Shown piece after piece: positions 9,777-57,844 of a stretch of DNA of 64,000 nt (positions within the stretch are counted from its first letter, which is position 1; each line of letters opens with the position of its first letter). The DNA lies in NCBI RefSeq assembly GCF_900215325.1, contig NZ_OCMS01000001.1, positions 62,001 to 126,000 of the forward strand, read 5' to 3'. This DNA is from Fibrobacter sp. UWB16. Its GTDB lineage: Bacteria; Fibrobacterota; Fibrobacteria; Fibrobacterales; Fibrobacteraceae. The notes beneath the pieces are model-generated. The model did no database searches and was not told where the DNA came from. It saw only the letters and a list, made by a program, of their open reading frames with translations. A program made the position numbers and the translations under genes.

Positions 9777-9785
9777 GGAGGAACT

Positions 9786-10475: not shown

Positions 10476-10567
10476 TCATTAGTTTTTAGTCATTAGTTTT
10501 TAGTTAATAGTTTGACGAATTTCACGATTATAATTCTATCGACTATTGACCAATGACTATTGACTAT
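10474..10567. repeat. Tandem and inverted AGTCATTAGTTTTT repeats
   Basis: Between the convergent cobB and HPt genes, a 14-base unit AGTCATTAGTTTTT occurs twice in tandem (10474-10487, 10488-10501), then a variant. The right side carries the inverse (AATGACTATTGACTA), so the whole gap can fold; TAGTCATT at 10473 pairs with AATGACTA at 10552. It could act as a bidirectional terminator. Confidence 0.6.
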
Positions 10568-10569
10568 TT

Positions 10570-10914
10570 TTATTCAGCACAAAGCTTGCCGAGCTCATCT
10601 CGTTTTTCGAAAAATTTGACCAAAAGTGCGCTGTAATCCATTTGCGTGCGATTGCGCAAGAGTTCGGTAATCTCGACAGCAAGCGTATATAGCGGCGTGA
10701 GCGAAAGGTTCCCGAGAACGCCCTTTAGTGCATGAGCCGCTTCAAACGCACCATCCAAGTCCTTGGCCGCAACTTTCTTCTCCAATCGTTCAAAAGTAGC
10801 GTCGTCAGGAATCGTCGTCACCAGTTTCAAATACAGGGCTTCGTTTCCAAAGCAGCGTTCAAGGCCTTCGGCCGTGTCGACACCGAAAGAATTCAGTTTT
10901 TCAATAGTAATCAC
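10570..10914 (-). CDS. Histidine phosphotransfer (HPt) protein
   Basis: 114 residues forming one HPt domain. AHALKGVLGNL carries the phosphorylatable His in the usual HxLKGxxxxLG context. The start is a GTG at 10914, three bases after the stop codon of the REC-GGDEF-EAL gene, with GGGGAA upstream. It would pass phosphate between the second receiver of the hybrid kinase at 13048 and the receiver of its operon partner. No other domain is present. Confidence 0.88.
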   Translation of the reverse strand: MITIEKLNSFGVDTAEGLERCFGNEALYLKLVTTIPDDATFERLEKKVAAKDLDGAFEAAHALKGVLGNLSLTPLYTLAVEITELLRNRTQMDYSALLVKFFEKRDELGKLCAE

Positions 10915-10917
10915 AGG

Positions 10918-40072: not shown

Positions 40073-41578
40073 CTACACTTCCGGCTTCATGAGCGGGAAG
40101 AGCTGCACGTCGCGGATGGTCTGCTGGTTCGTGAGGAGCATGACCATACGGTCGATGCCAAAGCCCACGCCGCCCGTCGGCGGAAGACCGCTTTCCACAG
40201 CGTGCATGAAGTTTTCGTCCATCGGGTGGGTTTCACCTTCACCACCGCGTCCACGACGCACCTGGTCTTCCAAGAGTTCGCGCTGGCGGATCGGGTCGTT
40301 AAGTTCGGTATAAGCGTTACCGAGTTCCCAGCCGTTGGCATACGGTTCGAACTGTTCAATGAGGCCTGCAGTCGTGCGGTGCTTCTTGCAAAGCGGAGTG
40401 CTTTCGGTAGGCATGTCCTTGATGATCGTCGGCTGGATGAGCTTGCCTTCCACCGTGAGGTCGAAGAGTTCCAAGATGCCACGGCCACGAGTAAATTCAC
40501 CATCGAGGTGACCACCGAGTTCTTCCATCTTGGCCTTGATTTCGTCGTCGCTCATGTCGTTGACCTTGATACCACCGAACTTTTCAATGGCTTCGATCAT
40601 GCTGTAGCGCGGCCACGGAGCCTTGAAGTCGATTTCCTTGCCCTGGTAGTTGATCTTGGTCGTACCGTTAGCGGCAATGCAAGCGCGTTCGTAAATGTTT
40701 TCGAAGTGCACCATCATGTCGTTGTAGTCGGCGTAGGCTTCGTAGAATTCGAGGCCAGTGAATTCCGGGCTATGCGTACGGTCCATACCTTCGTTGCGGA
40801 AGTTCTTGCAGAACTCGAAAACCTTTTCCATACCGCCGATGATGCAGCGCTTGAGGTAAAGTTCCGGAGCTACGCGCAAGTAAAGCGTCATGTCGCAAGC
40901 ATTGTGGTGCGTCGTAAACGGACGGGCGTTTGCACCACCATAAATCGGCTGCAAGGTCGGGGTTTCGACTTCGATGAATCCCTTTTCAATGAGGTATTCG
41001 CGGATTGCCTGCATAATCTTGGAACGCTTGATGAAGACTTCCTTCACATCGTCGTTCAAAGCCATGTCGATATAGCGCTGGCGGTAGCGGGTGTCCACGT
41101 CGGCAAATTCGTTGAACACAACCTTATTGCCATTTTCGTCAATCTTTTCCTTGGCGACCGGGAGCGGGCGCACAGCCTTCGAAAGCATCGTCACCTTTTC
41201 GGCACGCACAGAGTATTCACCGCTCTGCGTTTCGAACATCGTACCGTTCACACCGATGAAGTCACCGAGGTCAGTCATCTTCACGATTTCGTAGTTTTCT
41301 TCGCCCACTTCGTCACGGGCAACCACAACCTGCAAGCGGCCATAGCGGTCCTTGAGGTGCATAAAGCACATCTTGCCCTTGCGATTGAAACGCACAACGC
41401 GGCCGGCAAATGCAACCGGTTCCTTGGTCACCATCAAGGCATCCTTGTTTTCCTTCAAAACCTTGGAATCATGGGTCCTGTTAAACTTGTGCGGATAAGC
41501 ATCCACACCCATTTCCTTGAACTTGTCGAGCTTAGCCAAGCGAGCCATCACCTGGTCATTCATGTCTTGCATTGCCAT
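40073..41578 (-). CDS. lysS: Lysyl-tRNA synthetase, class II
   Basis: 501 residues. OB-fold anticodon-binding domain (VAFAGRVVRFNRKGKMCFMH), motif 2 (FRNEGMDRTHSPEFTGLE) and motif 3 (GVGFGIDRMVMLLT). Charges tRNA-Lys; the window also carries three tRNA-Lys(CUU) genes. First gene of the operon continuing into lolC/E. Codon use is strongly biased. Confidence 0.97.
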   Translation of the reverse strand: MAMQDMNDQVMARLAKLDKFKEMGVDAYPHKFNRTHDSKVLKENKDALMVTKEPVAFAGRVVRFNRKGKMCFMHLKDRYGRLQVVVARDEVGEENYEIVKMTDLGDFIGVNGTMFETQSGEYSVRAEKVTMLSKAVRPLPVAKEKIDENGNKVVFNEFADVDTRYRQRYIDMALNDDVKEVFIKRSKIMQAIREYLIEKGFIEVETPTLQPIYGGANARPFTTHHNACDMTLYLRVAPELYLKRCIIGGMEKVFEFCKNFRNEGMDRTHSPEFTGLEFYEAYADYNDMMVHFENIYERACIAANGTTKINYQGKEIDFKAPWPRYSMIEAIEKFGGIKVNDMSDDEIKAKMEELGGHLDGEFTRGRGILELFDLTVEGKLIQPTIIKDMPTESTPLCKKHRTTAGLIEQFEPYANGWELGNAYTELNDPIRQRELLEDQVRRGRGGEGETHPMDENFMHAVESGLPPTGGVGFGIDRMVMLLTNQQTIRDVQLFPLMKPEV

Positions 41579-42264
41579 ATTATTTACCTCGTGAATAAAT
41601 CACGTCTTAAATTTGAACGGGGTAAAGATAGCTTTTTAGTAGACAGTAGGAAGTAGTAAGTAGGAAGTTCGCGGCCTTAAACAGAACATACAGCCCCATT
41701 TTGCCAGTTTTATGCTATTAAAATAGTATTTTTGTGTTTTTAGTAGCACATTTTTTACTTTGTCTAACAAATTTCAGACCGAAAACTAAGCGTACATACT
41801 ACAAAATCTGGCATTTTTCACTTTTAGTAGCATATTCAATGCGAAAAAACACCAGACACGGCACAAATCCGTATAGTTTGTATAAAATTCATGCTACCAA
41901 AGAAGAGATTCGTCCATTTTAGTAGCACATTTTTGGATTTTACGCCATTTTAGGGAACCGCAAACTGCACCCAAACGCGCCGAATTCTTCGTCATTTTAG
42001 ATAAGCATTCCATTGACCCGCGGATAAAAGACTCACCCACGATTTCCGCATTTAAAGCGAGAGTCTATCCGCACGCAAAGCCCTGAATTTTATAAAAGCA
42101 TCTGTTTTTTACTGAATGACGAAAGGCTCTTCAGTCAAAAAGATCTATATTAATTTAACAAAAAAATATAGAAACGATATTTCTAAAATTGATTGTAGAA
42201 CTAATTCAGAAAAAGTTAAAGGGTGATGAATAACAAGGCTTGAAGCAGAAAAGAGGAAAACATA
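41579..42264. other. Large AT-rich gap with TTTTAGTAGCA repeats
   Basis: 686 bases upstream of lysS (minus) and the 1200-residue gene (plus). It starts with a GTAGGAAGTAG tandem (41638-41670). Three direct copies of TTTTAGTAGCA(C/T)A lie at 41737, 41822 and 41917, spaced 85 and 95 bases, plus inverted TATGCTATTAAAA at 41711. A dyad ACTGAA / TTCAGT lies at 42111-42135. A 62-residue frame here is built largely from the repeats and is not called. Confidence 0.5.
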
Positions 42265-45200
42265 ATGATAGATGATTATATTTTACAGAAAGACCGGAAC
42301 ATAATAAATTCATATTTGAAAAAAAATGAATTTCCTCCCAAAGAGAAGTATATTGATTTCTCTTGGAATCCTACCTTATTCTTTGCAAAAATCATTCTAG
42401 CTTCGCAAAATCATACGGCGTTAACCGAAACGGCCATACATACAGAAATTGTTGAATATAACCAAGCAAAAGGAACGAATGTTTCGCTAGATTATTTGTT
42501 AAACCGATTCTGGTTAAGAAATGTTTTGGGGCAAATAAAAATCTCAGGAGCAGTATTACGATTGTTCTTGGATGATAAAATTGTAGAAATACCAAAAGAG
42601 ATTAAAGACGATGAATTAGTAGAAAACTTCCTTTTTATGGAGTTCTTAGTAAAAAAATACAAATACGAAGATTCAAGAACCTGCGAGATTTCCTCGGAAG
42701 TATTTGACTCAATATACATAGGATTCAAGAATTTTTACCCCCAAATGTCCGAATTAGATACTCTTTTGCAGGAATATTCAATAACAAAAGAAGAGGATAA
42801 ATATGTCTTTGTATTGTGGAGGCTAGAACTAAAAGTCGATAAAGGCTTTTTATCGTCGTACATTTTATACTCATTGTTCCAAATTAGAGATTCCTCACAG
42901 GATGCAAAATCACTAAAAGAATGGTTGATTGCCACAAAGTTTATTTTTTGTCCAGAAGCATTTGAATCCCTTTCTGAATGGCATAAAGAACGTTTTATAA
43001 AAACAGCCCTGGAATTGTTGAAAAATGAATATGATTTGGAAGATGGTCGTGAGAATGAAAAATTTTTATTGAACGAAGATTTGAGTTTTTGCTCTTTTTA
43101 TTCAGCAAAAGACATTATATTGAGAAATGGATTGTCTGATTACACTATAGAATCTAAAGAACCTTTTGTTCAGTGGTTAAAATTCTTTTCAAATCGAGAG
43201 AGAGGGGTAGATCTCTTAGATTTTTCGATTCGTGAGGATTGTGTAAAGCTCCTGCAATCACTGCTGATTTACGCAATAAAGAATCCACGAGTCATTAATG
43301 TTTTAGACTTATTTGAAAATAAGTCATATTTACTATATCAAACAATCTTTTACCTAATTCGATTTAATCCTACTCATTTATTGGCATTTATTGATGATAA
43401 AAGATATGGATTATTTTTCTTTTGTTCATTTATCATATTATGTGAGGATTCGTTCAAAAAAAAGTTTGCTGATGAACATATTCCTTTTAAACTAGTTGAT
43501 AAATACACGATTTTATTTTGTGAAAAGAATTTGATCTGCAAAGAGAATTATCATGATGCTTCTTTGCTTTTAGTGTTTTTGATTGAAGGAATGTACAACA
43601 GCAAATGGCCATTTTTATACAGAAATGTTTATGAAAAGGTTTGCTCATCACCCATATTTAAAAAACCAACAAAATCTTGTGTTGCGGCGGCTTTGGACTG
43701 CTTTGAAAAAAATGCCAAAGATATATGGACTCAGCGTATTTGGCAAATAAAAATAAGTGAATTTAAATATTTATTCTTTTTTTATATAAAGGCTGAATCG
43801 TTTGAGAAAAAACAATGTTTTGATTTGATAAAGACATTGTACGAAAATTCTGTTCTAAAAAACGAAAAGTTCAATTATTGGAGAGAATGGAATGAAATTG
43901 ATTCGTTTGAATGGGGAGTTTTTTTTAATCAACTCTATGAACTAGATGAATTAAAAGTTTTTTGCTTAGATATTTTCAATTATCTCAATTTTGATGAGAG
44001 CGAAAGTGATTTTGATAAAAAGTATTCTGGTCCAAAAAAACTTCGTTTGCATCTAAAATTATTGTGCACGGTCTATTCTGAATGGCGTAAGTATGAAAGC
44101 AATGAGAAAGCGGAAAGGCTGGAAGAATGTATTGTTATAATTCTTCAAAATTGCTTTGTAAATAAAATTGAATCGAAAAAGATAGCCATTTTTGACCTAC
44201 TATACGAATCAAACTTGGGTTTTGATTTTAGTACGGAACTGTTTCCGCAGGTGATTGACGTATTGAAGTCTTTTTCTGAGCCGAACAGAAAGAAGGTTCT
44301 GCTGGCAATGTCAAAAGGCGATGACTTAAGACTGATGACAAAGACGTATAATTTAATGGATGATGAAGAAGATCAACGCTTTTTAAAGGGGTTGATGGAC
44401 TTTTCAACAGATGTCGAGAAATCAATCTCATTTTTTGACGATTACATTTCTTTTTTGCAAGATTTATATAATTCACATATTAACAATGAGTTCGCAGATA
44501 AGCTATTTGAAAAATTGGATAGTTCCATCAAAAATAGAGCAAAGGGACTGATAATCGCGCCCTTTGTATTGAATGCGCAAATTTTGAAATTATATAGTCT
44601 ATTTTGGCATAACAATCAAATGGGTTTACTTGAATACAAGAGTCCTTATAAGGATCCAGATGGACGGTATAAAGATGGCTTGATTAGTTTGGAAAATGAG
44701 CGGTACTTTTTGCTGACTCGAATGTATATGAAAAATGGAAAGAATGAGGAAGCTCAGAAAAATGTAAAAAAGATTAGATGTCAAGATTCTGATTATTTTG
44801 CTTTGAAGTACAAGTCTTTTGCACTTTATATATCCGTTTTTTACTCGAAAAACAGCTGCAATTATGCAGAATTGTTAAAACAATGTGACTCGCTAATTAG
44901 AGTGACAAAAAATAAAATGGGAGAAAATAAAAAAATATCGTATGAAGGACTTCAATATTTGTACTACGCTAAAGCGAGTCTTTTAGAAAAGATTGGGGAT
45001 TGTGATAAGCTCTATCAATTCTATAATTCTGTAGAAAATAATTATCATACCAAATTGGATTTCGCCAAACCGGTTGCGACTTGTCTGCTCAATAAAGGAC
45101 GGAATATAGAAGCTTTTAAAGTTTGTAATGCTATTCGACCATCTGAAAAGGAAAAAACAGAATATGAAAAACTAAAGAAAAGCATTCCAGCAGAAGATGA

Positions 45201-45867
45201 AATTTCTCGCTTAGCTAGTTCTTATAGGGAAATCATATGTTTAAGCAAAGAAGATCGATTCAAAGTTTTGCCGGATGTTGTGTGTAAACATCGAGAAAAC
45301 GTTGGCAGTTTTGTTATTCATTCAATATATTTTTGCTTGGAAAAAATTCTTCGGAAGATTAAAACACTAAAACTTTTGCCAGAAGATAATAAAACTGATT
45401 TAATTCAGATAACACTTGAAGCATATCTAAAGACTTTAAATTACGAAAACGATAAAGATCAACCGCATCGAGGTCTTTCGTCATCGAAGAAACAAGCCGG
45501 TGAGTTGGATTTTGTATTAGATTTTGATACATATTCCGTTGTTTTTGAAGCCGTAAGATGTGATTCGTTTAATCAAAATGTAAGAAAACATATTTTAAAA
45601 ATATTCCATTATGATTCGTCAAAGAGAATTTTCGTTAACTTGTTGTATTATGAAGGAAACAATTCTGATTTCTTGAATCATTGGGAAATAATTACTCAAA
45701 AAACATCCAATAATTCAGATGTCGTGTATCCACACAATTTTAAATGTTTGTCTTGTAAAGATATCTCTAATGAATTTGGAAATGCTTCAATTAAAGTTTT
45801 GAAAAATACTCATGAAAACGAATTAGAATTTTATCATATATTTGTCAATTTAAGTTATGCGGATTAA
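42265..45867 (+). CDS. Large helical-repeat protein with C-terminal REase-like domain
   Basis: 1200 residues, AT-rich, unlike its neighbours. The start has AGAGGA at proper distance. Most of the protein (1 to about 1020) is alpha-helical; about 785-950 reads like TPR repeats (YFLLTRMYMKNGKNEEAQ, YYAKASLLEKIGD). Near 1065-1140 a PD-(D/E)xK-like pattern appears: RGLSSSKKQ, GELD (Asp1082), a strand, VVFEAVR (Glu1095, then V where Lys is common) and HILKIFHYD. I recall such GELD-EA domains at the ends of large STAND defence proteins. No Walker A or B is present, so it lacks the NTPase. Candidate anti-phage protein; function not established. Confidence 0.75.
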   Translation: MIDDYILQKDRNIINSYLKKNEFPPKEKYIDFSWNPTLFFAKIILASQNHTALTETAIHTEIVEYNQAKGTNVSLDYLLNRFWLRNVLGQIKISGAVLRLFLDDKIVEIPKEIKDDELVENFLFMEFLVKKYKYEDSRTCEISSEVFDSIYIGFKNFYPQMSELDTLLQEYSITKEEDKYVFVLWRLELKVDKGFLSSYILYSLFQIRDSSQDAKSLKEWLIATKFIFCPEAFESLSEWHKERFIKTALELLKNEYDLEDGRENEKFLLNEDLSFCSFYSAKDIILRNGLSDYTIESKEPFVQWLKFFSNRERGVDLLDFSIREDCVKLLQSLLIYAIKNPRVINVLDLFENKSYLLYQTIFYLIRFNPTHLLAFIDDKRYGLFFFCSFIILCEDSFKKKFADEHIPFKLVDKYTILFCEKNLICKENYHDASLLLVFLIEGMYNSKWPFLYRNVYEKVCSSPIFKKPTKSCVAAALDCFEKNAKDIWTQRIWQIKISEFKYLFFFYIKAESFEKKQCFDLIKTLYENSVLKNEKFNYWREWNEIDSFEWGVFFNQLYELDELKVFCLDIFNYLNFDESESDFDKKYSGPKKLRLHLKLLCTVYSEWRKYESNEKAERLEECIVIILQNCFVNKIESKKIAIFDLLYESNLGFDFSTELFPQVIDVLKSFSEPNRKKVLLAMSKGDDLRLMTKTYNLMDDEEDQRFLKGLMDFSTDVEKSISFFDDYISFLQDLYNSHINNEFADKLFEKLDSSIKNRAKGLIIAPFVLNAQILKLYSLFWHNNQMGLLEYKSPYKDPDGRYKDGLISLENERYFLLTRMYMKNGKNEEAQKNVKKIRCQDSDYFALKYKSFALYISVFYSKNSCNYAELLKQCDSLIRVTKNKMGENKKISYEGLQYLYYAKASLLEKIGDCDKLYQFYNSVENNYHTKLDFAKPVATCLLNKGRNIEAFKVCNAIRPSEKEKTEYEKLKKSIPAEDEISRLASSYREIICLSKEDRFKVLPDVVCKHRENVGSFVIHSIYFCLEKILRKIKTLKLLPEDNKTDLIQITLEAYLKTLNYENDKDQPHRGLSSSKKQAGELDFVLDFDTYSVVFEAVRCDSFNQNVRKHILKIFHYDSSKRIFVNLLYYEGNNSDFLNHWEIITQKTSNNSDVVYPHNFKCLSCKDISNEFGNASIKVLKNTHENELEFYHIFVNLSYAD

Positions 45868-46049
45868 TTTTTTTAATGGGCATGAAATTAACCTTTTAAA
45901 AAGCCAATTTTCACAACAAATCGGAAGACTGAAGCGTAGAGTATAGAAGTCCGCCGGTATCCCGCAATCAGCCCTCTAAGCGTAAAAATCGTAGTTTCAT
46001 GACGCATTCCCCCCCCCCACACACTCTCTCAGTATCAGGAGGGGCGCCC
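45868..46049. other. Gap with a 10-C homopolymer
   Basis: Contains a run of ten C at 46009-46018 followed by CACACACTCTCTC, 32 bases before the ribosome site of the small gene at 46050. No gene otherwise seen. Confidence 0.5.
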
Positions 46050-46181
46050 ATGCGTAACAAGCTCATTTTGACACTTTGTGACAAAATGGGAATGTATATT
46101 TGGTGGCGTAGTAATCTTGCGTTTTTTTTGGCTTGTAACGCAAAGGAGTTGATGATGAAGGAAGTGAAAAGTGTCACATAA
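46050..46181 (+). CDS. Small 43-residue protein, strong ribosome site
   Basis: The ATG at 46050 follows AGGAGG with seven-base spacing. The frame MRNKLILTLCDKMG ... LAFFLACN ... is moderately hydrophobic and ends with VKSVT. An imperfect 21-base dyad (TTTTGACAC-TTT-GTGACAAAA) at 46066-46086 lies inside it, and a second strong site (AAAGGAG) precedes an eight-codon frame near its end. An upstream in-frame ATG at 45999 would read through the C tract. A terminator follows. Function unknown; could be a leader. Confidence 0.45.
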   Translation: MRNKLILTLCDKMGMYIWWRSNLAFFLACNAKELMMKEVKSVT

Positions 46182-46191
46182 ACTTGCTGAT

Positions 46192-46227
46192 GGAACCTGG
46201 TCGCAAATTGCGACTGGTTCCTTTTTT
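46192..46227 (+). terminator. Intrinsic terminator after the 46050 small gene
   Basis: Stem GGAACC...GTCGCAA / TTGCGAC...GGTTCC (one T-T bulge), followed by six T. Confidence 0.85.
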
Positions 46228-46237
46228 AATACGGAGG

Positions 46238-46266
46238 TTGACGAGTAATAAAAAGTAATATATATT
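46238..46266 (+). promoter_or_regulatory. Sigma-70-type promoter at the toxin start
   Basis: TTGACG (46238-46243), 17-base spacer, TATATT (46261-46266). The -10 ends only four bases before the toxin ATG at 46271, so the transcript would be leaderless or start inside the gene. Confidence 0.6.
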
Positions 46267-46270
46267 TATT

Positions 46271-46546
46271 ATGTACAATATTTTAATGTCGAGAAGGGTC
46301 TCTCGGGCTGTTTCAGCAATGCCCCAAAAGCAACAAGAAAAACTTGCGTTGCTTGTTGATGACATACGAATGAATGGTCCCGTCAGAACAAATTGGCCAA
46401 ATTACGGAATATTGGCAGGAACGTCTACTCATCATTGCCACCTTTCCCACAAATGGGTGGCGTGTTGGGTTGAAACGAAAAAAGGAATAACTGTGGAGGT
46501 TACTTATGCAGGCAGTCGTGGAAGCGCCCCCTATGCAGAACACTGA
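46271..46546 (+). CDS. RelE/HigB-like toxin
   Basis: 91 residues. YNILMSRRVSRAVSAMP starts like RelE-superfamily toxins, with GPVRTNWPNY, HHCHLSHKWVACW and VEVTYAGSRGSAPY, the pattern of the toxin type paired with XRE antitoxins. Predicted mRNA interferase acting at the ribosome. The toxin gene comes first and overlaps the antitoxin gene by 41 bases in another frame. The family match supports the ATG at 46271; no ribosome site is visible. Confidence 0.85.
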   Translation: MYNILMSRRVSRAVSAMPQKQQEKLALLVDDIRMNGPVRTNWPNYGILAGTSTHHCHLSHKWVACWVETKKGITVEVTYAGSRGSAPYAEH

Positions 46547-46916
46547 TGAACCGGTGTCGTTCAAGGTTTCGGGCAAGAATATTCCGAAACCTGTCATTGC
46601 CTTTTTGGACGCGCTGTTCCCCGATTCCGTCCGTATCGAAGACGACGATGACGTTCTCGAGCCAGTGGAAGAAATGGATTGGTACAAGAAGGCGAAAAAA
46701 AATATAAATCCAGCCAAGACGCTGAAAATAATGCGCATAAACGCAGGACTTACGCAAGCGCAGTTGGCACAAAAAGTTGGTCTCGCAAAACAAAATTATA
46801 ATTCGCTTGAACGAGGAGCCAGGCCCATTTCTATGCTCATGTCAAAGAAGTTAGCCGATGCGCTCGGGACATCTTATTTGATGTTTTTCCGCGAAAATAA
46901 AAGTCGGTCGCCTTAA
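46506..46916 (+). CDS. XRE-family antitoxin
   Basis: 136 residues. An acidic N-terminal half (toxin-binding; IEDDDDVLEPVEE, EMDWYKKAKK) is followed by a helix-turn-helix of the XRE type (about 75-130: MRINAGLTQAQLAQKVG, NYNSLERGARPIS). It should neutralise the overlapping RelE-like toxin and repress the operon. GGAGG lies ahead of the ATG at 46506. Confidence 0.88.
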   Translation: MQAVVEAPPMQNTDEPVSFKVSGKNIPKPVIAFLDALFPDSVRIEDDDDVLEPVEEMDWYKKAKKNINPAKTLKIMRINAGLTQAQLAQKVGLAKQNYNSLERGARPISMLMSKKLADALGTSYLMFFRENKSRSP

Positions 46917-47002
46917 ATCCGCCGTATGTATTGACTTTGGCGATTTGAGGTAATATACTTTTTTGACGGGAACAACAGCAGCCACGAAGAGAAATTTCGC
47001 AT

Positions 47003-47125
47003 TTACAAAGGAACCCCAAGATTCGCTTTAAGAAAACGAAATAGCAACAACAATATAATAGGGATAATAATTATTCCCACACAACAGCCTAAGCCAACAA
47101 TTTCATCATCATCTAAGTCTTTCAT
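47003..47125 (-). CDS. Predicted 40-residue membrane protein
   Basis: An acidic N-terminus (MKDLDDDE) followed by one hydrophobic segment (GIIIIPIILLLLFRFL). Its ATG overlaps the TAA of the 26-codon frame upstream (TAATG), which favours translation. No family recognised. Confidence 0.5.
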   Translation of the reverse strand: MKDLDDDEIVGLGCCVGIIIIPIILLLLFRFLKANLGVPL

Positions 47126-47205
47126 TACCACTTCAACATATTCAACTTTCGAAGGACACTATCAATCTCTTTTTGGAAGGTCGGATCTTGGAATTTATCA
47201 CTCAT
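47125..47205 (-). CDS. 26-residue frame coupled to the small membrane protein
   Basis: MSDKFQDPTFQKEIDSVL... ends LKW. The open frame extends upstream without a start to the A7 run at the end of the 47252 gene, in its +1 frame. It may therefore be a displaced C-terminus of that gene rather than a separate gene. Stop overlaps the next ATG. Confidence 0.4.
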   Translation of the reverse strand: MSDKFQDPTFQKEIDSVLRKLNMLKW

Positions 47206-47251
47206 CTGCCCATAAGGACTTTTCGGATTTGGCTGCCGCAAAATTTTCCTG

Positions 47252-47719
47252 TCATTTTTTTAAACTATCCGAAAATTTTTCAGTTTTTTTACGAGATTCT
47301 TCTAGCCAATATTTATCAGAATTAGTCTTTGTCAAATAGAAAAAAGGTTCATATTCCAACAACTTTGAAGTAACAACTTGAGCCAATCCCACAGAATCAT
47401 CAAAGTTCAAAAAAGTCATCACGTTTCCGTTCTTAATCGTAACAAAATTTATTTTTTCCCTTTTTTCGTCTTTATAATAAATTCTAACAACTGATGACTC
47501 AAAAGAATTTTCAATCGGTTCATCGTTTAAAGATTTTGGATCAAATACCAAAGCTTCAAACTCAACCGGTTCATTTGAACTTGTGGGCTGAATAGCGCAT
47601 ACAGTTCCTTTACATTCGATTTTTATTTCAGAATCGATGCAATCCTTATTAAGCAAAGCCAATTCCAATGGAAACAAAGCAACCAAAATAACAACAAAAA
47701 AAGAAAGTATTCTTTTCAT
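47252..47719 (-). CDS. Small exported protein, unknown
   Basis: 155 residues with a signal peptide (ILSFFVVILVALFPLELAL). Two Cys pairs near the front (CIDSEIKIECKGTVC) and an Asp/Lys-rich body. The frame ends at TTA AAA AAA TGA; removing one A of the A7 run would extend it by about 47 residues into the 47205 frame. Lies 12 bases after the 47732 gene in a run of small exported proteins. Confidence 0.65.
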   Translation of the reverse strand: MKRILSFFVVILVALFPLELALLNKDCIDSEIKIECKGTVCAIQPTSSNEPVEFEALVFDPKSLNDEPIENSFESSVVRIYYKDEKREKINFVTIKNGNVMTFLNFDDSVGLAQVVTSKLLEYEPFFYLTKTNSDKYWLEESRKKTEKFSDSLKK

Positions 47720-47731
47720 AATCTAGGCTCA

Positions 47732-48127
47732 CTAATAAACAGCATTTACTTCCCGAAAAGGCCCAAAGAAATGTTTTCCCAAAACAATGTAATAGCCCGT
47801 CCTATCATAGCCATTCAAAAAATCAACATATTTACTCTCTTCATACTTCACGACTCCGATTACGCTCTTGATGCCATGAAATTCGGCCATTAAACGAATG
47901 GTATCCTTATCAAGAACTTTCAATTCATTTTTCAAGAAATAACGGTCTTTTTCTGTAAAGCAATAATCAAAGCAGTCCGTTTCAATCTCGACAAAAGACG
48001 TGTTCATTGTAAACGATTTTTTCATCGGTGATTCATCGTGCATCACATAAAAAATAAACACCAAACACACTAGCAAAAAGCTAGCGATAAAAGCAAATGC
48101 GATTTTGATTATCTTTTTAACGTTCAT
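47732..48127 (-). CDS. Small membrane-anchored protein, unknown
   Basis: 131 residues from the ATG at 48127. One N-terminal membrane helix (IAFAFIASFLLVCLVFIFYVM), then about 100 extracytoplasmic residues with CFDYCF. No family recognised; same strand as its exported neighbours. Confidence 0.6.
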   Translation of the reverse strand: MNVKKIIKIAFAFIASFLLVCLVFIFYVMHDESPMKKSFTMNTSFVEIETDCFDYCFTEKDRYFLKNELKVLDKDTIRLMAEFHGIKSVIGVVKYEESKYVDFLNGYDRTGYYIVLGKHFFGPFREVNAVY

Positions 48128-48196
48128 CTTCAATAGCAATCCGACAAATCAATATTATTTTGCACATCATCCCAAAAATTGGGACTTAAGCCATTT

Positions 48197-48742
48197 TTAT
48201 CTGATGATTTCTTCTTTTGAGCTTTTTCTCTTTCTATTTTTTACATCGCGCAAGTCATGCCAATTGGTACAGGCATAATTCTGCAAAGCATAGTCCTTAT
48301 TCCGTTTTTCAAGCATAGGAATAAGGAACCGTACGGTCATCACCTTTTCCGTATTAAGGGAGCCCTTTGAAAACAAGTCCCCCGCGCCCCACAAATCGGC
48401 AAGAGCGACAGAATCCGTTTTTCCAGCTAAAGACTTTATCTGTACTACATCAGCCGAGTCAACCATATTGCCATTTTCGGAATTTTCATAAGAAATATGA
48501 TATGTCAGAATAGCATCCTTTGACTTGAACTGAACAACACCATCATAATCAACAGCTTTCTTTACAGGGAACAATGTCAAACTTTCGCTCGAAGCTACGT
48601 TATTCCCAAACGTGAACATAAACTTTTCAGGGACATTAAATTTATCAAAAGCAATATCCACATTGAGCATTTCAATGCAGTTTAAACCACGAGCCTGCAC
48701 GCAGGCAACGCAAAGGAGAAGAAAGAAAAGTAATGATTTCAT
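48197..48742 (-). CDS. Exported protein, unknown
   Basis: 181 residues from the ATG at 48742. Signal peptide (LLFFLLLCVACVQARG); a body of beta-like strands with two Cys and a basic C-terminus (VKNRKRKSSKEE). First gene of the small minus-strand cluster 48742-47003. No family recognised. Confidence 0.65.
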   Translation of the reverse strand: MKSLLFFLLLCVACVQARGLNCIEMLNVDIAFDKFNVPEKFMFTFGNNVASSESLTLFPVKKAVDYDGVVQFKSKDAILTYHISYENSENGNMVDSADVVQIKSLAGKTDSVALADLWGAGDLFSKGSLNTEKVMTVRFLIPMLEKRNKDYALQNYACTNWHDLRDVKNRKRKSSKEEIIR

Positions 48743-48796
48743 GCTTTTCAATATAAAAAAACGACAACTTCGTCAAAAGTTGCCGTTTAAAAAAAT

Positions 48797-48838
48797 CATT
48801 GGATTCTATCGGCCCGTCGGGCCTCCAGAATGACAAGA
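48797..48838. repeat. Palindromic repeat between the island and prfC
   Basis: GGCCCGTCGGGCC dyad with GATTC and AATGACA borders, a member of the same repeat class; it marks the edge of the AT-rich block. Confidence 0.6.
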
Positions 48839-48843
48839 ATAAA

Positions 48844-50409
48844 CTACCCTTGCGAGGTTTCGGCGAAGCTCAGGCGTTCGTAATTTTTGAGCGCGAGGTT
48901 CAGGCGGTACTCATTCGGGAAGAGGCACACAAGATTGCGTTCCTTGTCCATCATGCAGTCGCCGGCATATTCTTCGGCGAACTTGCCCACGTCAGCTTCG
49001 GGGCCTTTAACCCAACGGATGCAATGAGCAGGCACGCGGTCGAGCTGTACATCGGCGCCGTATTCGCTCTGCAAGCGGAACTTGAGCACGTCGAACTGGA
49101 GCTCTCCCACAACGCCCACGACAGGCACAGCGGACTTGAGCGGTTCATAGAGCTGCGTTGCACCTTCTTCCGAAAGTTCTGCAAGGCCCTTCGCCATCTG
49201 CTTAGACTTGAGCGGATTCAAAAGTGTCACGCGGGCAAAGTGTTCCGGCGCAAAGTCCGGGATACCCGTGAAGTTCATCTTTTCGCCATCCGTAAGCGTA
49301 TCGCCAATGCGGAAAAGTCCCGGGTCGTTGATACCCACGATGTCGCCCGCCCAGGCATGGTCAATGACTTCCTTATCCTTAGCGAGGAAGGCGGTCGGAG
49401 CAGCCAAGCGGATGTCACGACCAGTACGCACGTGGAAAACCTTTTCGCCACGGGTAAAGCTACCCGAGCAAATGCGGAGGAATGCCGTGCGGTCGCGGTG
49501 TTTCGGGTCCATGTTGGCCTGAATCTTGAAGACGAATGCGCTGAAAGCGTCTTCGTCCGGCTTGACCGGGCGCTTGTCGGTGTCGCGGATCATCGGCGGC
49601 GGAGCGAGTTTTGCAAAAGCGTTCAAGAGCTGGCGCACACCGAAGTTGTTCACAGCAGAACCGAAGAACACCGGGCACATTTCGCCCTTGAGGAACTTTT
49701 CGTGGTCGAACGGATCCATACCGCCTGTGACCATTTCATACTCTTCGCGGAATTGCGCAACCCAGTTTTCACCGCAGAGTTCAACCAAGCGCGGATCGTC
49801 CGGACCTTCCATCTGGATAATTTCTTGCTTGCCATCGTCCGGATTGAACGTGTGGAACGTGTTTTCGGCAATGGAATAGACGCCCTTGAAAAGCTTACCG
49901 ACGCCAATCGGGAGCGTAAACGGAGCGGTCTTAATCTGCAAAACGCTTTCAATCTGATCGAGCAAGTCGAGCACGTGACGACCGTCCAAGTCCATCTTGT
50001 TGATGAACGTGATAATCGGCGTGTGGCGCATACGGCAGACATTCATCAAGCGAATCGTCTGCTTTTCAACACCGTTCACGCTATCGATAAGCACCAAAGC
50101 AGCGTCCACGGCAGTAAGCGCACGGTACGTGTCTTCGCAGAAGTCCTGATGCCCCGGGGTATCGACGAGGTTGAACATGCAACCTTCAAACGGGAAGTTC
50201 AGCACGGAACTCGAAACAGAAATACCACGCTGTTGTTCAATCTTCATCCAGTCACTAACAGTGTAGCTCTTGTTGGCCTTCGCGCGCACGTGACCAGCCT
50301 CGCGAATCACATTCCCGTACCACAGGAACTTTTCGGTGATGGTGGTTTTACCGGCGTCAGGGTGGCTGACAATAGCGAAAGTGCGGCGTTTTTCAATTTC
50401 TGGATTCAT
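48844..50409 (-). CDS. prfC: Peptide chain release factor 3
   Basis: 521 residues from the ATG at 50409 (an upstream start adds 16 non-conserved residues). Translational GTPase motifs: SHPDAGKTT (G1), DTPGHQDF (G3), NKMD (G4). RF3-specific EKQQ-type segment (WMKIEQQRGISV) and C-terminal domain follow. Recycles RF1/RF2 after termination. Strong codon bias. Marks return to core genome after the AT-rich island. Confidence 0.96.
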   Translation of the reverse strand: MNPEIEKRRTFAIVSHPDAGKTTITEKFLWYGNVIREAGHVRAKANKSYTVSDWMKIEQQRGISVSSSVLNFPFEGCMFNLVDTPGHQDFCEDTYRALTAVDAALVLIDSVNGVEKQTIRLMNVCRMRHTPIITFINKMDLDGRHVLDLLDQIESVLQIKTAPFTLPIGVGKLFKGVYSIAENTFHTFNPDDGKQEIIQMEGPDDPRLVELCGENWVAQFREEYEMVTGGMDPFDHEKFLKGEMCPVFFGSAVNNFGVRQLLNAFAKLAPPPMIRDTDKRPVKPDEDAFSAFVFKIQANMDPKHRDRTAFLRICSGSFTRGEKVFHVRTGRDIRLAAPTAFLAKDKEVIDHAWAGDIVGINDPGLFRIGDTLTDGEKMNFTGIPDFAPEHFARVTLLNPLKSKQMAKGLAELSEEGATQLYEPLKSAVPVVGVVGELQFDVLKFRLQSEYGADVQLDRVPAHCIRWVKGPEADVGKFAEEYAGDCMMDKERNLVCLFPNEYRLNLALKNYERLSFAETSQG

Positions 50410-50439
50410 GGCGCCAAATATAGTAACTTTAGGGGTTAA

Positions 50440-50485
50440 GTTCAATGATGGGGTCATCCTGAGCGAGAGCCTCGAAATATCTTTT
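50440..50485. repeat. Palindromic repeat, left-border copy
   Basis: Carries GTCATCCTGAG at 50453-50463 followed by GCGAGAGCCTCG; a partial copy of the composite repeat, between prfC and the glycosylase gene. Confidence 0.6.
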
Positions 50486-51415: not shown

Positions 51416-54400
51416 TTATTTCTTTTTCTTGTTAGCGTTATTTCCGCGGACATCCTTCGGCTTGAACTGAACGCTAATTTCCACATTCGTCACCTTGGAA
51501 CCGAGTCCAGACGGGTCAAACACCTTGTACGTAAATTCATCGATTCCAGAGAAGCCCTTGTTCGGGGTATATTCGAAGGAACCATTCTTTTCGTTCAAGA
51601 CGATTCGACCATTGCGCGGCTTCATCACGGTCTTCACAGATTCGAGCTTGTCGCCGTCCGGGTCCTTCGCAGCAGACATAAGGCCTGTTGCAGCCGGGAC
51701 CTTGAGCACTTCACCTTCGCGAGTCTGGTAAGAGAGCGGCTTCGTTTCCGGAGCGTTATTCACAGCAATCACCGTAAACGTTGCTGTCTTGTGAGCCGTA
51801 GCGCCTTCCGGGTCGGTGACCGTGAACGTGATGCGTTCCGGCTTGCCCTTCCAGTGAGAATACGGCTGAGCCACGATTACAGTCTTCTTGGCCTTGTCAT
51901 AAGTCACCTGCAGCTGCTTATTGCCAGTGAACTTCCACTTGAGATCGTCGAAGTTGTGGTCCTTATCGCGAGCGTACTGGTCCAGCTTAATCGTAGCAAT
52001 AACGCCTTCGTTCTGATTTTCCCTAATAGTGTAGTCAGGAATGTCGCGCATCACCGGAGCTGCATTCACATGCTTCACGATGAACTTCACAACAGACTTG
52101 TCCGTGCCACCAGCCGGGTCAGTTGCGGTAAAGATGATGGTTTCGTCACCGAACCAGTTGTCTCTTCTCGGCTTGATTTCAGCAACGCGGTTGGCGTTGA
52201 TTCTCACGTCGAGGTTCTTGGCACCAGAGACCTTCCAGCGGATTTCATTCTTCTTGTGGTCCGGATCCGAGACAAAGTCATCGAGATTGATAGACTTGAA
52301 AGCCTTGCCTTCGAGAGTCGTCTGTCCCGGGATTTCCTTCACCACCGGAGCGTCGTTCACGGACTTCACCGTAAAGCGCACTTCAATAGAAGCCTTTTCC
52401 TTGCTCGGGTCAAACACGTTGATCGTCACCGTTTCGCTACCGTTCCAGTACTTGTTCGGGATTTCAACAGTGAGAATACCCTTTTCACTGATATTGTACT
52501 TCAGTTCATGCTTGCCAAAGGTCGGAGCCGGTTCTTCTTCAACATGCTTCTTTTTCTTCTTATCCTTTTTCTTGTCCTTCTTCTTGGACTTTGCAGGTGC
52601 GGCAGAAGCAAACGGATTTTCGCCATCGATAGACCACTTGAGTTCATCGACCTTGTTATCCGGATCCGTCACATACTTGGTCAAGTCGATTGCCGGGAAG
52701 GTCTTCTTTTCGTCAATGACCTGCGGCGGAATCGTCTTAAACTTCGGAGGATCGTTCACCGGAGTCACTTCGAATGTAGCCTTGGCAGACTGCTTGTCGC
52801 CAGCCGGGTCCATCACCGTGAACACGAGCGTTTCCTTACCAAACCAGTTCGGGTTCGGAGTCGTCACCGTTGCACGTCCATTCTTGATATCCACAACGAG
52901 TTCGTTGTTACCAGCAACAGACCACTTGAGTTCATTCGGCTTGTTATCCGGATCATGCACAACCTTGGTAAGGTCCACCATCGTGAACTTTTCCTTTTCC
53001 TTGATCTTCTGATCGCCAATCTGCTTGACAATTGTCGGCGGGTCATTCACCGGAGTCACTTCAAAATCAATCTGCTGAGAAGCTCTTGCACCTTCCGGGT
53101 CCGTCACATCGAGGCGGATCTTTTCAGAACCGTTCCAGTACTTGTCCGGAGTCGTCACAACCAACTGCTTCTTGGCATTGATCGTTGCCTTGAGAGCGCG
53201 GGTCTGGGCAACTTCGATCTTGAGAGAACTCGTCGGATGATCCGGGTCAGAGATGAACTTGGTCAAGTCAATCGGTTCAAAGTGTTCCTTTTCCTTGATT
53301 GTCTGAGCAAGAATCGGTCTGATAACTGGAGCGTCGTTCACAGATTCCACAACGAAATTGACTGTCTTGGAATCCGTAGCACCATCCGGATCCTTCACAG
53401 TGAACACGACATTGCGTTCACCATGCCAGTGCGGGTCGGCAATATTGATGTGGGCAAGGCCACCCTTGTAAATTACGACACTGAACGGATCCTTTACGGC
53501 TTCCTCGTCTTCTTCGTCATCATCCTTCTTACCCTTCTTCTTATCCTTCTTGCTCTTCTTGACCGGCTTTGTTTCAGGCTTCAGCACCTTCACTGCCCAA
53601 GAAAGCTGTTCCATGGTATTATCCGGGTCACGAACGAACTTGCTCAAGTCAATATCCTTGAACTGGCCCTTTTCACGAATTCTCTGCGGCGGGATATCTC
53701 TCAAAACCGGAGGATCGTTCACAGAAACAATTTCAAACGTAATGGACTGAGAAGTCTTAGCGCCATCCGGGTCGCTCACTTCGAGAATCATCATTTCAGG
53801 AGCGCACCAGAAATCCTTGTTCGGAGCCATCACCGTAAGCACACGGCTCGGAGAAATTTCAGCCTTGAGCTGCTTTGCACCAGTGATTCTCCAGCGGAGT
53901 TCATTCGGCTTGTTATCCGGGTCCTTCACAAATTCGTCAAGCTTGATCTGCTTGAAGGTTTCCTTTTCCTTAATCTTCTGGTCCGGGATTCTCTTCACGA
54001 ACGTCGGAGGATCGTTCACACGAGTCACTTCAAAGAGCATCTTGTGGCGAGCATAAGCGCCTTCCGGGTCCGTCACGGAGAACGTGAGGTTTTCCTTACC
54101 GCTCCACTGCTTGTCCGGAACAGAAATAATCACAGTGTTGTCCTTGCGGATATCCACCTTGAGGTCACGATTGCCAGAAACTTCCCACTTCAAGGAAGAT
54201 GCCGGATGGTCCGGGTCTTCGGCGAGAGTCGAGAGGTCGATCGTCTTGAAGCGGCCGCCTTCGAGAATCGTTTCACCCATCGGAGCGTCCTTCGAAATAA
54301 TCGGGGCGTCGTTCACAGAACGCACTTCGAAGCGAGCTGTCTTGCTTGCAGAAGCACCTTCCGGGTCAGTTGCGGTAAACGTGATGTTTGCAGCACCGTG

Positions 54401-57400
54401 CCAATACTTGTTCGGGATAACAATGTTGGCGACCTGGTTTGCATCAACGTTCACGCTGAGCTTTTCACCAGCCGGTTCTTCGTCATCCTTCTTGCCCTTC
54501 TTCTTGGAAGAACCCTGGCCAATCGGGCTTACCTTGAACGTCCACTTGAGATCGCTAATCTTGTGGTCCGGATCCTTCACGAAGTCAGCGAGCTTAATCG
54601 GCTGGAACTGCTTCTTTTCATCAATCGACTGATCGCGAATATCACGAACGAATTCCGGAGCATCGTTCACAGAAAGCACCGTGAATGTCACTTCCTTGCT
54701 ATCCGAGGCGCCATCCGGGTCCGTCACCGTGAAGCGGATCTTTTCAGAACCGTTCCAGCTTGCGTTCGGCGGAGTCACAGTCACCTTATGCGTTGCATCC
54801 ATCGTCACGCGAAGTTCCTTCTGGCCTTCGATCTTCCACTTGAGGCGATTCTTGGCATGGTCAAGGTCTTCAACGTAATTGTCAAGTTCAATCGGCTTGA
54901 ACGATTCCTTTTCCTTGACAGTCTGGCTTGCAATTTCCTTCATGACCGGCGGGTCATTCACAGAAACAACCGTAAATGTTGCAGTTGTACGAGCCTTGGC
55001 ACCAGACGGGTCCGTCACCGTGAACGTCACCTTTTCAGAGCCGTTCCACATCTTGTTCGGAGTCTTGACCGTAACAATGCCGGCCTTGGACATATCGACC
55101 TTGAGGTCCTTATTGCCGGTAAAGTCGATCTTCAAGCTTTCAAAGCGGTCATCCGGGTCAGACACGAGTTCAGACACGTTGAACGGAGTAAATTCGCCCT
55201 TTTCCTGGATGGTCTGGTCGGCCACCTGCTTAATTTCCGGGAGGTCGTTCACGGATTCCACGGTGAAGAGTGCAGAAGAGGAAGCCTTAGCACCTTCCGG
55301 GTCCGTCACCGTAAACGTAATTTCTTCGGCGCCATTCCAGAACTTGTTCGGAATGATAATCTTTGCAACCTTCTGGTCGTCAATTTCAACCTTGAGTTCA
55401 GAATCTTTCTTCTTGGAACCTGCCGCCGGCTTGCTAGAGACAGAGAACGTGAGTTCAGAGAGCTTGTTATCCAAGTCCTTCACCATGTCAGCAAGCTTGA
55501 TCGGCTGGAACTGACCCTTTTCGCGAATCGTCTGCGGCATCACCTGCTTCACGAACATCGGAACGTCGTTCACGGATTCCACAGTAAAGGTTGCGGTACG
55601 TTCGTCGCAAGCGTTATCCGGGTCGCAAACCTTGAACGTCAAGGCTTCGGCACCATGCCACTGCGGAGACGGCGGAGTAATGCGCACGTTACGAGCGGCA
55701 TCCACAGCCACCTTGAGTTCCTTGTTGCCCGTAATCGTCCACTTGAGGCGGTTCTTGGCATGGTCAAGGTCTTCAACAAAGTTATCAAGTTCAATCGTCT
55801 GGAATTCACCCTTTTCCTTGATCGTCTGTTCACGAATATCCTTCATGACCGGCGGGTCGTTGATAGCCTTTACAGTGAACTTAGCAGAAGTTGTTGCACG
55901 AGCGCCTTCCGGGTCCGTGGCCGTAAAGGTCAAGTTTTCCGTACCATTCCACTGGTCGTGCGGAATCTTCACAGAGACTTCATGGGACCTGTTATCGATA
56001 TTGACCTTGAGGTCCTTATTGCCCGTCACTTCGACCTTGAGCTTGGAGAAGTCATGGTCGGCATCGCTCAAGTAGTCATCCAAAATGAACGACGTGAATT
56101 CATTCTTTTCTTCAACAGCCTGGTCCGGGATTTTCTTGAATACCGGCGGGTCGTTCACAGACTTCACATTGAGTGCGACATCCTGCTTTGCAGAACCGCC
56201 TTCCGGGTCGGTGACCGTGAACGTAGCAATCGTGTTACCGTTCCAGCTCGGGTCCGGAATTTCAACCGTAGCCACATGCTGGTCGTCAATATTTACGTTG
56301 AGCGTGCCGAGTTCCGGCATCGGGCCCTGGTGCTTGACTTCGACATCCCAGGAGAGTTCAGAATTCTTGTGGTCTTCATCCTTGACAAAATCATCAAGCT
56401 TGATCTTCGTGAACTGCTGTTTTTCGCTGATGTTCTGGTTCGGAATCGGACGAATGATCTTCGGCAAGTCGTTCACGGAATTGACCGTAAACACGGCTTC
56501 GCATTCAGCAGAAGCGCCTTCCGGGTCCGTAGCCTTGAACTTGATGGATTCAGAGCCATTCCAAAGTTTGTTCGGAATGCGAATAGTGGCAACACCACCA
56601 GAAACAGAGACCTTCAGGTCCTTGGCACCGGCAACAGCCCACTTGAGCATTTCGATGCGGTGGTCCGGATCCTTCACGTACTGGCCAAGCTGAATCGGAG
56701 TAAATTCCTGCTTTTCGTCAATTGTCTGGTCCGGGATGTTCTGAACAAACTCAGGAGGGTCGTTAATAGACTTTACCTTGAGCAAAACATCCTGCTTTGC
56801 AGAAGCACCAGCAGCGTCGGTCACGGTAAACGTCACGCGTTCCTGGCCGTTCCAGAATTCATTCGGAGTGGTAATGATGGCAGAACCGTAATTATCGATT
56901 TCGATCTTCAAGTCCTTGTTGCCCGTCACTGTCCACTTGAGCTTCATCGGATCGTCATCCGGGTCGGTGACATAGTCCGCAAGGGAAATCATGTCGAACT
57001 GGTTCTTTTCGTCGATGACCTGGTCCGGAATCTTCTTCGTAAACGTCGGAGGATCGTTCACGGGCTGAACCGTAAATGCAGCGGTCTTGTTATCGCTACC
57101 GTAATCCGGGTCATTGGCAATAAACTTGATTCTTGCAGCACCATACCAGTGAGCATCCGGCACGACAATCGTCGCAACGCGGTTAGCGTCAATCGTCACA
57201 GACAAATCGCCATCAGCCTGCGGGCCACCAGCCGGAACGACTTCGGTATCCCACGTAATCTGGTTCTTCTTATGGTCTGGGTCATTCACAAAGTCATCCA
57301 GGCGGATCTTTGCAAACTGCTTGCCTTCCGTAATCACCTGGCTTGGAATTTGAGCCACCACCGGTGGATTGTTCACAGATTCGACGGAGAAGTTTACGGT

Positions 57401-57817
57401 TTCCGAAGCCGAGGCGCCCTTGGAGTCCGTAGCCGTAAAAGTCAAGTCTTCAGAGCCATTCCAAAGAGCATCCGGCGTGGTAATTTCAACCGTATGGTCC
57501 GGAGCAATATTCACCTTGAGGGCCTTGTTGCCACTGACTTTCCAGCGAATCTGGGAGGGCTGGTCCACATCGTCGGTGACAAAGTTATCAAGCTTAAACT
57601 TCGAGAAAGTTCCACCTTCCTGAATAGATTCACCAGGAATACCACCAATCTGAGGAGGCTCGTTTGCCGGAGCCGGTTCTGGCGCCGGGGCAGGTTCGTT
57701 CACAGGAGCTGCAGGCTCAGCCTGTGGAGCCGGTGCTGGATTTTGCGCAAACGACGATGTTGCAATAACACTAGCAGAAGCTATCAAGGTCGCCATGGAC
57801 CGCTTCAGTTTATTCAT
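51416..57817 (-). CDS. Giant exported protein of about 20 Ig/cadherin-like repeats
   Basis: 2133 residues from the ATG at 57817. Signal peptide ends near SSFAQ; a Pro/Ala/Glu-rich stretch follows. Then about 20 tandem domains of 90-115 residues, each with VNDPP at the border, EK or EG, LDxFVxDPDH, W-x-V-x-G-x-K-x-L-K-V, WNG-x-E and FTVTDPEGA. DPDH and TDPEG suggest Ca2+ sites as in cadherin-like domains. Domains 2, 5, 8, 11, 14 and 17 carry an insert that becomes longer and richer in Lys/Asp/Glu towards the C-terminus. The last domain differs (tandem-95-like) and the end is Lys-rich without a recognised sorting domain. Likely a stalk, adhesin or envelope scaffold. Confidence 0.9.
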   Translation of the reverse strand: MNKLKRSMATLIASASVIATSSFAQNPAPAPQAEPAAPVNEPAPAPEPAPANEPPQIGGIPGESIQEGGTFSKFKLDNFVTDDVDQPSQIRWKVSGNKALKVNIAPDHTVEITTPDALWNGSEDLTFTATDSKGASASETVNFSVESVNNPPVVAQIPSQVITEGKQFAKIRLDDFVNDPDHKKNQITWDTEVVPAGGPQADGDLSVTIDANRVATIVVPDAHWYGAARIKFIANDPDYGSDNKTAAFTVQPVNDPPTFTKKIPDQVIDEKNQFDMISLADYVTDPDDDPMKLKWTVTGNKDLKIEIDNYGSAIITTPNEFWNGQERVTFTVTDAAGASAKQDVLLKVKSINDPPEFVQNIPDQTIDEKQEFTPIQLGQYVKDPDHRIEMLKWAVAGAKDLKVSVSGGVATIRIPNKLWNGSESIKFKATDPEGASAECEAVFTVNSVNDLPKIIRPIPNQNISEKQQFTKIKLDDFVKDEDHKNSELSWDVEVKHQGPMPELGTLNVNIDDQHVATVEIPDPSWNGNTIATFTVTDPEGGSAKQDVALNVKSVNDPPVFKKIPDQAVEEKNEFTSFILDDYLSDADHDFSKLKVEVTGNKDLKVNIDNRSHEVSVKIPHDQWNGTENLTFTATDPEGARATTSAKFTVKAINDPPVMKDIREQTIKEKGEFQTIELDNFVEDLDHAKNRLKWTITGNKELKVAVDAARNVRITPPSPQWHGAEALTFKVCDPDNACDERTATFTVESVNDVPMFVKQVMPQTIREKGQFQPIKLADMVKDLDNKLSELTFSVSSKPAAGSKKKDSELKVEIDDQKVAKIIIPNKFWNGAEEITFTVTDPEGAKASSSALFTVESVNDLPEIKQVADQTIQEKGEFTPFNVSELVSDPDDRFESLKIDFTGNKDLKVDMSKAGIVTVKTPNKMWNGSEKVTFTVTDPSGAKARTTATFTVVSVNDPPVMKEIASQTVKEKESFKPIELDNYVEDLDHAKNRLKWKIEGQKELRVTMDATHKVTVTPPNASWNGSEKIRFTVTDPDGASDSKEVTFTVLSVNDAPEFVRDIRDQSIDEKKQFQPIKLADFVKDPDHKISDLKWTFKVSPIGQGSSKKKGKKDDEEPAGEKLSVNVDANQVANIVIPNKYWHGAANITFTATDPEGASASKTARFEVRSVNDAPIISKDAPMGETILEGGRFKTIDLSTLAEDPDHPASSLKWEVSGNRDLKVDIRKDNTVIISVPDKQWSGKENLTFSVTDPEGAYARHKMLFEVTRVNDPPTFVKRIPDQKIKEKETFKQIKLDEFVKDPDNKPNELRWRITGAKQLKAEISPSRVLTVMAPNKDFWCAPEMMILEVSDPDGAKTSQSITFEIVSVNDPPVLRDIPPQRIREKGQFKDIDLSKFVRDPDNTMEQLSWAVKVLKPETKPVKKSKKDKKKGKKDDDEEDEEAVKDPFSVVIYKGGLAHINIADPHWHGERNVVFTVKDPDGATDSKTVNFVVESVNDAPVIRPILAQTIKEKEHFEPIDLTKFISDPDHPTSSLKIEVAQTRALKATINAKKQLVVTTPDKYWNGSEKIRLDVTDPEGARASQQIDFEVTPVNDPPTIVKQIGDQKIKEKEKFTMVDLTKVVHDPDNKPNELKWSVAGNNELVVDIKNGRATVTTPNPNWFGKETLVFTVMDPAGDKQSAKATFEVTPVNDPPKFKTIPPQVIDEKKTFPAIDLTKYVTDPDNKVDELKWSIDGENPFASAAPAKSKKKDKKKDKKKKKHVEEEPAPTFGKHELKYNISEKGILTVEIPNKYWNGSETVTINVFDPSKEKASIEVRFTVKSVNDAPVVKEIPGQTTLEGKAFKSINLDDFVSDPDHKKNEIRWKVSGAKNLDVRINANRVAEIKPRRDNWFGDETIIFTATDPAGGTDKSVVKFIVKHVNAAPVMRDIPDYTIRENQNEGVIATIKLDQYARDKDHNFDDLKWKFTGNKQLQVTYDKAKKTVIVAQPYSHWKGKPERITFTVTDPEGATAHKTATFTVIAVNNAPETKPLSYQTREGEVLKVPAATGLMSAAKDPDGDKLESVKTVMKPRNGRIVLNEKNGSFEYTPNKGFSGIDEFTYKVFDPSGLGSKVTNVEISVQFKPKDVRGNNANKKKK

Positions 57818-57844
57818 TTTAGATCTCCGATTCCATATACGCAA

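Follow-up and report, generated by a model that had tools for sequence, protein, structure and literature searches.

A stand-alone helical-scaffold protein with a C-terminal PD-(D/E)xK-like domain in Fibrobacter: a probable one-gene phage-defence protein

What does a solitary gene for a large, mostly helical protein do between lysS and prfC in the 3.56-Mb genome of a rumen bacterium, and is it part of that bacterium's defence against phages? We analyzed a stretch of 64,000 nucleotides from Fibrobacter sp. UWB16 (hereafter the window; positions are window positions). The gene is a reading frame of 1200 codons with an ATG start (42265..45867, + strand), preceded by a Shine-Dalgarno sequence, AGAGGA, 7 nt 5' of the ATG (42252..42257, +). 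Its product has two parts: (i) an N-terminal helical scaffold, residues 1-1016 (42265..45312, +), a putative sensor or regulator that is TPR-like in part; and (ii) a C-terminal PD-(D/E)xK-like domain, residues 1017-1200 (45313..45864, +), delimited by alignments, leave-out HMMs and fold comparison. A first-pass annotation, made from the letters alone, had proposed a one-gene defence protein, in which a nuclease-like tail is attached to a TPR-like solenoid that has no NTPase. We recover its ORF at exactly those coordinates and its motif string at residues 1069-1117, and a motif scan of the 1200-aa protein finds no Walker A motif, as it had stated. The protein has no match in Pfam, PADLOC, NCBIfam, PHROGs or PDB sequences, and PADLOC-DB 2.0.0 (2023) returns no family at E<=10.

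A single gene in an accessory-gene hotspot

The ORF is a real gene. Its copy in Fibrobacter succinogenes RUG10790, the closest named relative with the gene, lies at the same chromosomal place and is 82% identical across all 1200 residues, with a dN/dS between the two of about 0.16-0.17. We rejected strong constraint as the reason why the last 200 residues are near-identical, because dS falls from 0.70 over residues 1-1000 to 0.09 over residues 1001-1200 with dN/dS steady at 0.16; this pattern is that of recombination. The gene is under purifying selection and has recombined internally.

No other gene adjoins it closely. The divergent lysS (40073..41578, − strand) starts 687 bp upstream. Downstream, about 400 bp with a terminator-like stem-loop and T-run (46197..46217, +; a consensus match only) separate the gene from a HigB/HigA-like pair. 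This pair comprises a small HigB/RelE-like toxin ORF (46271..46546, +), named by eye and without a family match, and a HigA-like HTH antitoxin (46506..46916, +; HTH_3, E=1.7e-12). GC content is 0.31-0.32 across 42-46 kb versus 0.48-0.53 in most of the window; the gene itself stands at 31%, its surroundings at about 49%. The AT-rich composition and the toxin-antitoxin neighbour that had been read as signs of a defence island are both present.

We placed the gene within a variable site, bordered on the left by lysS and on the right by prfC (48844..50457, − strand), from the ORFs and a cross-genome comparison. In four close relatives with a 97-99% identical lysS, the interval between them (window 41579-48843) is empty, at 240, 486, 505 and 506 bp; seven genomes have 2.0-7.3 kb there, with varying cargo that includes other conflict-type genes. 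One genome (G004) has an HD-CE/HATPase protein of 879 aa exactly where the window gene sits, another (G148) carries a NERD-domain protein, an unassigned 544-aa protein and a SocA/PemK pair, and a third (G114) has HigBA without the window gene. The lysS-prfC interval is an accessory-gene hotspot with cassette turnover.

We note some further features of this site. The HigB-like ORF (window 46271-46546; L002 about 14022-14363; L023 in G114) has an unbroken frame in the window and G004; in RUG10790 and G114 a common 32-bp deletion breaks it, with the antitoxin intact. Three exact copies of TTTTAGTAGCA are found within 190 bp upstream of the gene (window 41713-41927); at one mismatch or fewer the window holds 5 matches versus 0.9 expected, and intergenic repeats related to it occur at the same site in G147. 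A 2142-aa protein with about 20 cadherin/Ig-like repeats (51416-57844, − strand) is kept beside the hotspot in RUG10790.

The C-terminal domain and its candidate active site

The 184-residue C-terminal domain defines a small mobile family with the pattern E...DQxxxGxSxS...GE(L/I)D...EA...HxxK...Y...H, which appears in the window protein as RGLSSSKKQAGELD (1069-1082), FEAVR (1094-1098) and HILKIFHYD (1109-1117). Ten aligned domains of several architectures share 13 invariant columns: E1040, Q1066, G1070, S1072, S1074, G1079, D1082, E1095, H1109, K1112, Y1116, F1136 and H1191. The first link to a known sequence was weak (E=5) and joined residues 1040-1131 to ORF333 of P2-EC5; pairwise BLASTP of the window domain against ORF333 gives E=7e-7 over about 118 residues. 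HMMs made from the AAA_15-partner, Roc-COR and phage versions, with all Fibrobacter sequences left out, retrieve the window protein at E=3e-13 to 6e-13, against E>=1.3 for shuffled decoys. These sequence comparisons rule out chance as the source of the shared motif. The domain is present in 3 of 168 Fibrobacterota genomes. Its profile finds no relative by sequence in the PDB, and tblastn of plasmids with the window protein or its tail returned no matches. We took one further candidate member, L014 (E=6e-4, in a 2069-aa frame), to be a chance match.

We compared an AlphaFold model of residues 1017-1200 (pLDDT 74) with known structures. Its elements run in the order helix (E1040), strand (D1082), strand (E1095), helix (H1109, K1112) and strand, which is compatible with a restriction-endonuclease type of core. 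The six best VIA-align matches are all PD-(D/E)xK enzymes, including OkrAI, BamHI and McrC, at Z scores of 6.2-6.8, a range that the tool calls middling, and the first core strand would lie in a low-confidence stretch (model residues 45-61). Lower matches comprise other PD-(D/E)xK proteins and RPB5, whose N-terminal domain is classed with the PD-(D/E)xK fold. The best Foldseek match of the domain model is McrC, a weak one (E=0.05). The C-terminus thus models, if with modest scores, as the PD-(D/E)xK-type alpha/beta domain that had been predicted, in which D1082 and E1095 take the places expected of them; because these scores are middling, we regard a PD-(D/E)xK nuclease-type fold as likely, short of proven.

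Alignment and model together outline a candidate active site. The invariant E1040 (45382..45384, +) opens the first core helix, and D1082, the D of GELD (45508..45510, +), and E1095, the E of FEAVR (45547..45549, +), are candidate metal ligands. The acidic residues of the PD-(D/E)xK superfamily are in place, with E1040 on the predicted first helix and D1082 and E1095 on two adjacent strands, all three invariant in 10 proteins. The ExK lysine, two residues past the second acidic residue, is not conserved in the 10 aligned domains, which have EA(V/F/M/L), EPL, ECF or ESL instead. An invariant HxxK on the next helix (H1109..K1112; 45589..45600, +) may replace it. As the canonical lysine is absent, we treat the domain as a putative nuclease.

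The helical scaffold, the relatives and the other carriers of the domain

Residues 1-1060 are predicted to be helical nearly throughout, and the full-length model is poor (pLDDT 41). The helical part of the earlier TPR-like assignment therefore stands at low confidence, and its TPR part weakly: TIGR00540 (TPR_hemY_coli) matches three of the seven family members (best E=0.0027, weak), the window protein not among them, and a Pfam search gives no TPR match in the window protein. The scaffold of the third Fibrobacter member (P0010) matches that of the window at E=1e-69. Solenoid-only HMMs of the Proteobacterial group fail to retrieve the window protein, and for this reason we do not claim a single scaffold for all seven members. 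A profile-profile alignment of the Fibrobacter and Proteobacterial groups, tail included, gives E=1.1e-8 over 762-1197; hhalign of the scaffolds alone gives E=0.031, in register, and beats all 20 column-shuffled controls. Common descent of the two groups of scaffolds is possible on this evidence.

Our search led from ORF333 to an AAA_15 pair in Vibrio, to a pair of LRR-Roc-COR proteins and to a Burkholderia protein; the Burkholderia protein in turn led to the full-length Salmonella, Edwardsiella and prophage members and to the third Fibrobacter member. It yielded a small set of six NTPase-free proteins with the layout of the window protein. The RUG10790 member occupies the same lysS-prfC hotspot in another Fibrobacter, and the homologue in Fibrobacter G139 starts 58 bp past hsdS of a type I restriction operon. 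The Burkholderia member (1269 aa; no PADLOC family at E<=0.01) starts 83 bp past an OLD nuclease gene (PADLOC Old, E=1.5e-84), and a few genes beyond it is a reverse transcriptase of the defence-associated type. An IncC plasmid carries the Edwardsiella member, with a PIN/HTH pair and an integrase next to it; another is on a Salmonella plasmid and has no DNA match in E. coli genomes; the L015 member (7995-11771), which is enterobacterial, lies among prophage genes. The first-pass annotation had held that homologues in conserved core positions, with no defence genes nearby, would speak against defence; they lie in mobile or defence contexts, so that objection falls away. We also observed that the G139 operon (L016 1920-12895) contains an inserted DUF1016/YhcG PD-(D/E)xK nuclease gene and an unassigned 316-aa gene, followed by the scaffold-nuclease homologue.

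The domain also occurs in other architectures. ORF333 of P2-EC5, which carries it, follows ORF555, an AAA_15 ATPase (Pfam AAA_15, E=1e-23; NsnB is its top PADLOC model, E=1e-49). ORF333 also matches Pfam PDDEXK_4 below threshold (E=0.08) and PADLOC CARF-PDDEXK at E=0.004. Several P2-like prophages carry this two-gene version flanked by the replication and portal genes, and the P2 replication-portal (gpA-gpQ) site is reported to be a defence hotspot (Rousset et al., PMC9122126; Vassallo et al., PMC9519451). A Vibrio domain gene is likewise paired with an AAA_15 ATPase, and Photobacterium toruni and Spirosoma linguale have the domain as the C-terminus of LRR-Roc-COR GTPases. The first reading had described the domain as the tail of STAND NTPases; we found no such tail among the carriers traced, and the hosts that we did find are the LRR-Roc-COR GTPases and separate genes beside AAA_15 ATPases. 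Two carriers had further features. The Photobacterium toruni LRR-Roc-COR protein is encoded on a plasmid (L007 3697-6435), between Tn7-like transposition genes and the tniQ/cas genes of a type I-F CRISPR-associated transposon, and a phage contig (L027 4750-6423) encodes a 557-aa protein with a possible metalloprotease-like motif (QLAHVILH) at its N-terminus and the same C-terminal domain.

Several systems resemble the window protein in part. Large STAND/Avs (NLR-like) defence proteins combine helical repeats with a nuclease effector; the window protein, in contrast, has neither a STAND NTPase nor Walker A, carries its putative effector at the C-terminus, and has no sequence similarity that we could detect with any PADLOC model or PDB chain. 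The LRR-Roc-COR (ROCO) proteins likewise join an N-terminal repeat scaffold to the same C-terminal domain in one chain, but they have a Roc GTPase, a COR module and leucine-rich repeats, whereas the window protein is without an NTPase. ORF555/ORF333 of P2-EC5 shares with it the C-terminal domain, the invariant residues and a place in a variable locus, there a prophage defence locus. That system differs in consisting of two genes with an ATPase partner and in having about 150 residues ahead of the domain versus about 1000 in the window protein; the literature text searched held no defence test of this pair. A further comparable case is a single-gene defence protein with a beta-propeller and an Mrr nuclease (Vassallo et al. 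2022, PMC9519451), which also places scaffold and nuclease domain in one gene with no NTPase described. Its Mrr nuclease is N-terminal, whereas the window protein has a helical scaffold and a C-terminal domain.

A probable defence role weighed against its alternatives

We think it fairly likely that the window gene moves horizontally and makes up a single-gene defence against phages (or mobile elements), its product combining a sensing or autoinhibitory helical scaffold with an effector nuclease. Since relatives of the protein or of its end domain lie in prophages, on plasmids and in a restriction locus, it probably serves phage defence as a one-gene system not described before, and we found no description of a one-gene system of helical repeats and PD-(D/E)xK domain among open-licence papers. 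The probable defence role follows from context, with small counts, namely the restriction operon, the OLD neighbour, the P2 hotspot for the domain and the cassette turnover; what we infer beyond it are the sensing role of the scaffold, the nuclease activity and the independence from a partner. The scaffold of about 1000 residues would detect an invader product, keep the nuclease inactive, or both; the PD-(D/E)xK-like domain would be the effector and would cut DNA upon release, and either the invader would be restricted or the infected cell killed. The observations of the first-pass annotation were right and its interpretation mostly so. A bolder proposal, which we offer only tentatively, is a hitherto undescribed family of one-gene, NTP-independent immune sensors, in which a helical receptor of about 1000 residues frees its own fused nuclease. 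That nuclease would represent a new PD-(D/E)xK clade, with the catalytic lysine moved to the next helix (HxxK), and would be an effector that also serves ROCO GTPases and AAA ATPases, the sensor modules being interchangeable.

That the gene is stand-alone and without an NTPase holds, but it may not form a system by itself. The protein may require a partner, since a defence gene immediately precedes it in two relatives (OLD in Burkholderia, the restriction operon in G139). In P2-like prophages and Vibrio, all copies of the domain that we saw come immediately past an AAA_15 ATPase. The protein could accordingly be half of a two-component system, a scaffold-nuclease that depends for activation on another protein, an ATPase or nuclease (OLD, AAA_15 or a restriction complex), whose gene is a neighbour in some hosts and lies at another locus in the rest. 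We consider this, the main rival reading, unlikely: the window, RUG10790, Edwardsiella and prophage L015 have no adjoining ATPase gene, the Roc-COR carriers have their NTPase within the same chain, and the upstream partners vary from member to member.

The unconserved ExK lysine, and structural matches that include non-catalytic domains such as RPB5, would also suit a domesticated or regulatory protein, whose PD-(D/E)xK-like domain, no longer catalytic, would just bind nucleic acid, and whose scaffold would serve some other accessory function of mobile elements. However, E1040, D1082, E1095 and H1109/K1112 are invariant across very divergent proteins, which is the pattern of an active site, and BamHI, among the best structural matches, also lacks the ExK lysine yet is active, and the superfamily is known to include such lysine-free members; we judge loss of catalysis improbable. 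Least convincing is a selfish-maintenance or toxin-type module regulated by the neighbouring HigBA, with no phage sensing involved. A toxin-antitoxin pair does adjoin the gene at both lysS-prfC loci (window and RUG10790), and the Edwardsiella plasmid copy adjoins a PIN/HTH pair, but HigBA occurs without the window gene in G114 and beside a different gene in G004, the 400-bp gap and the terminator-like stem-loop separate it from the gene, and the remaining family members found are not next to HigBA. We regard such a module as very improbable.

If the one-gene defence reading is correct, the C-terminal domain would be an uncatalogued defence effector that is plugged into several types of sensor: a ROCO GTPase, an AAA ATPase pair and a bare helical scaffold. 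The family would then offer a small set of test cases, one of them prophage-borne, for the control of a nuclease by a large sensor that hydrolyses no nucleotide. The lysS-prfC interval would likewise be a place to seek defence genes in genomes of the type of Fibrobacter succinogenes, a fibre degrader of the rumen.
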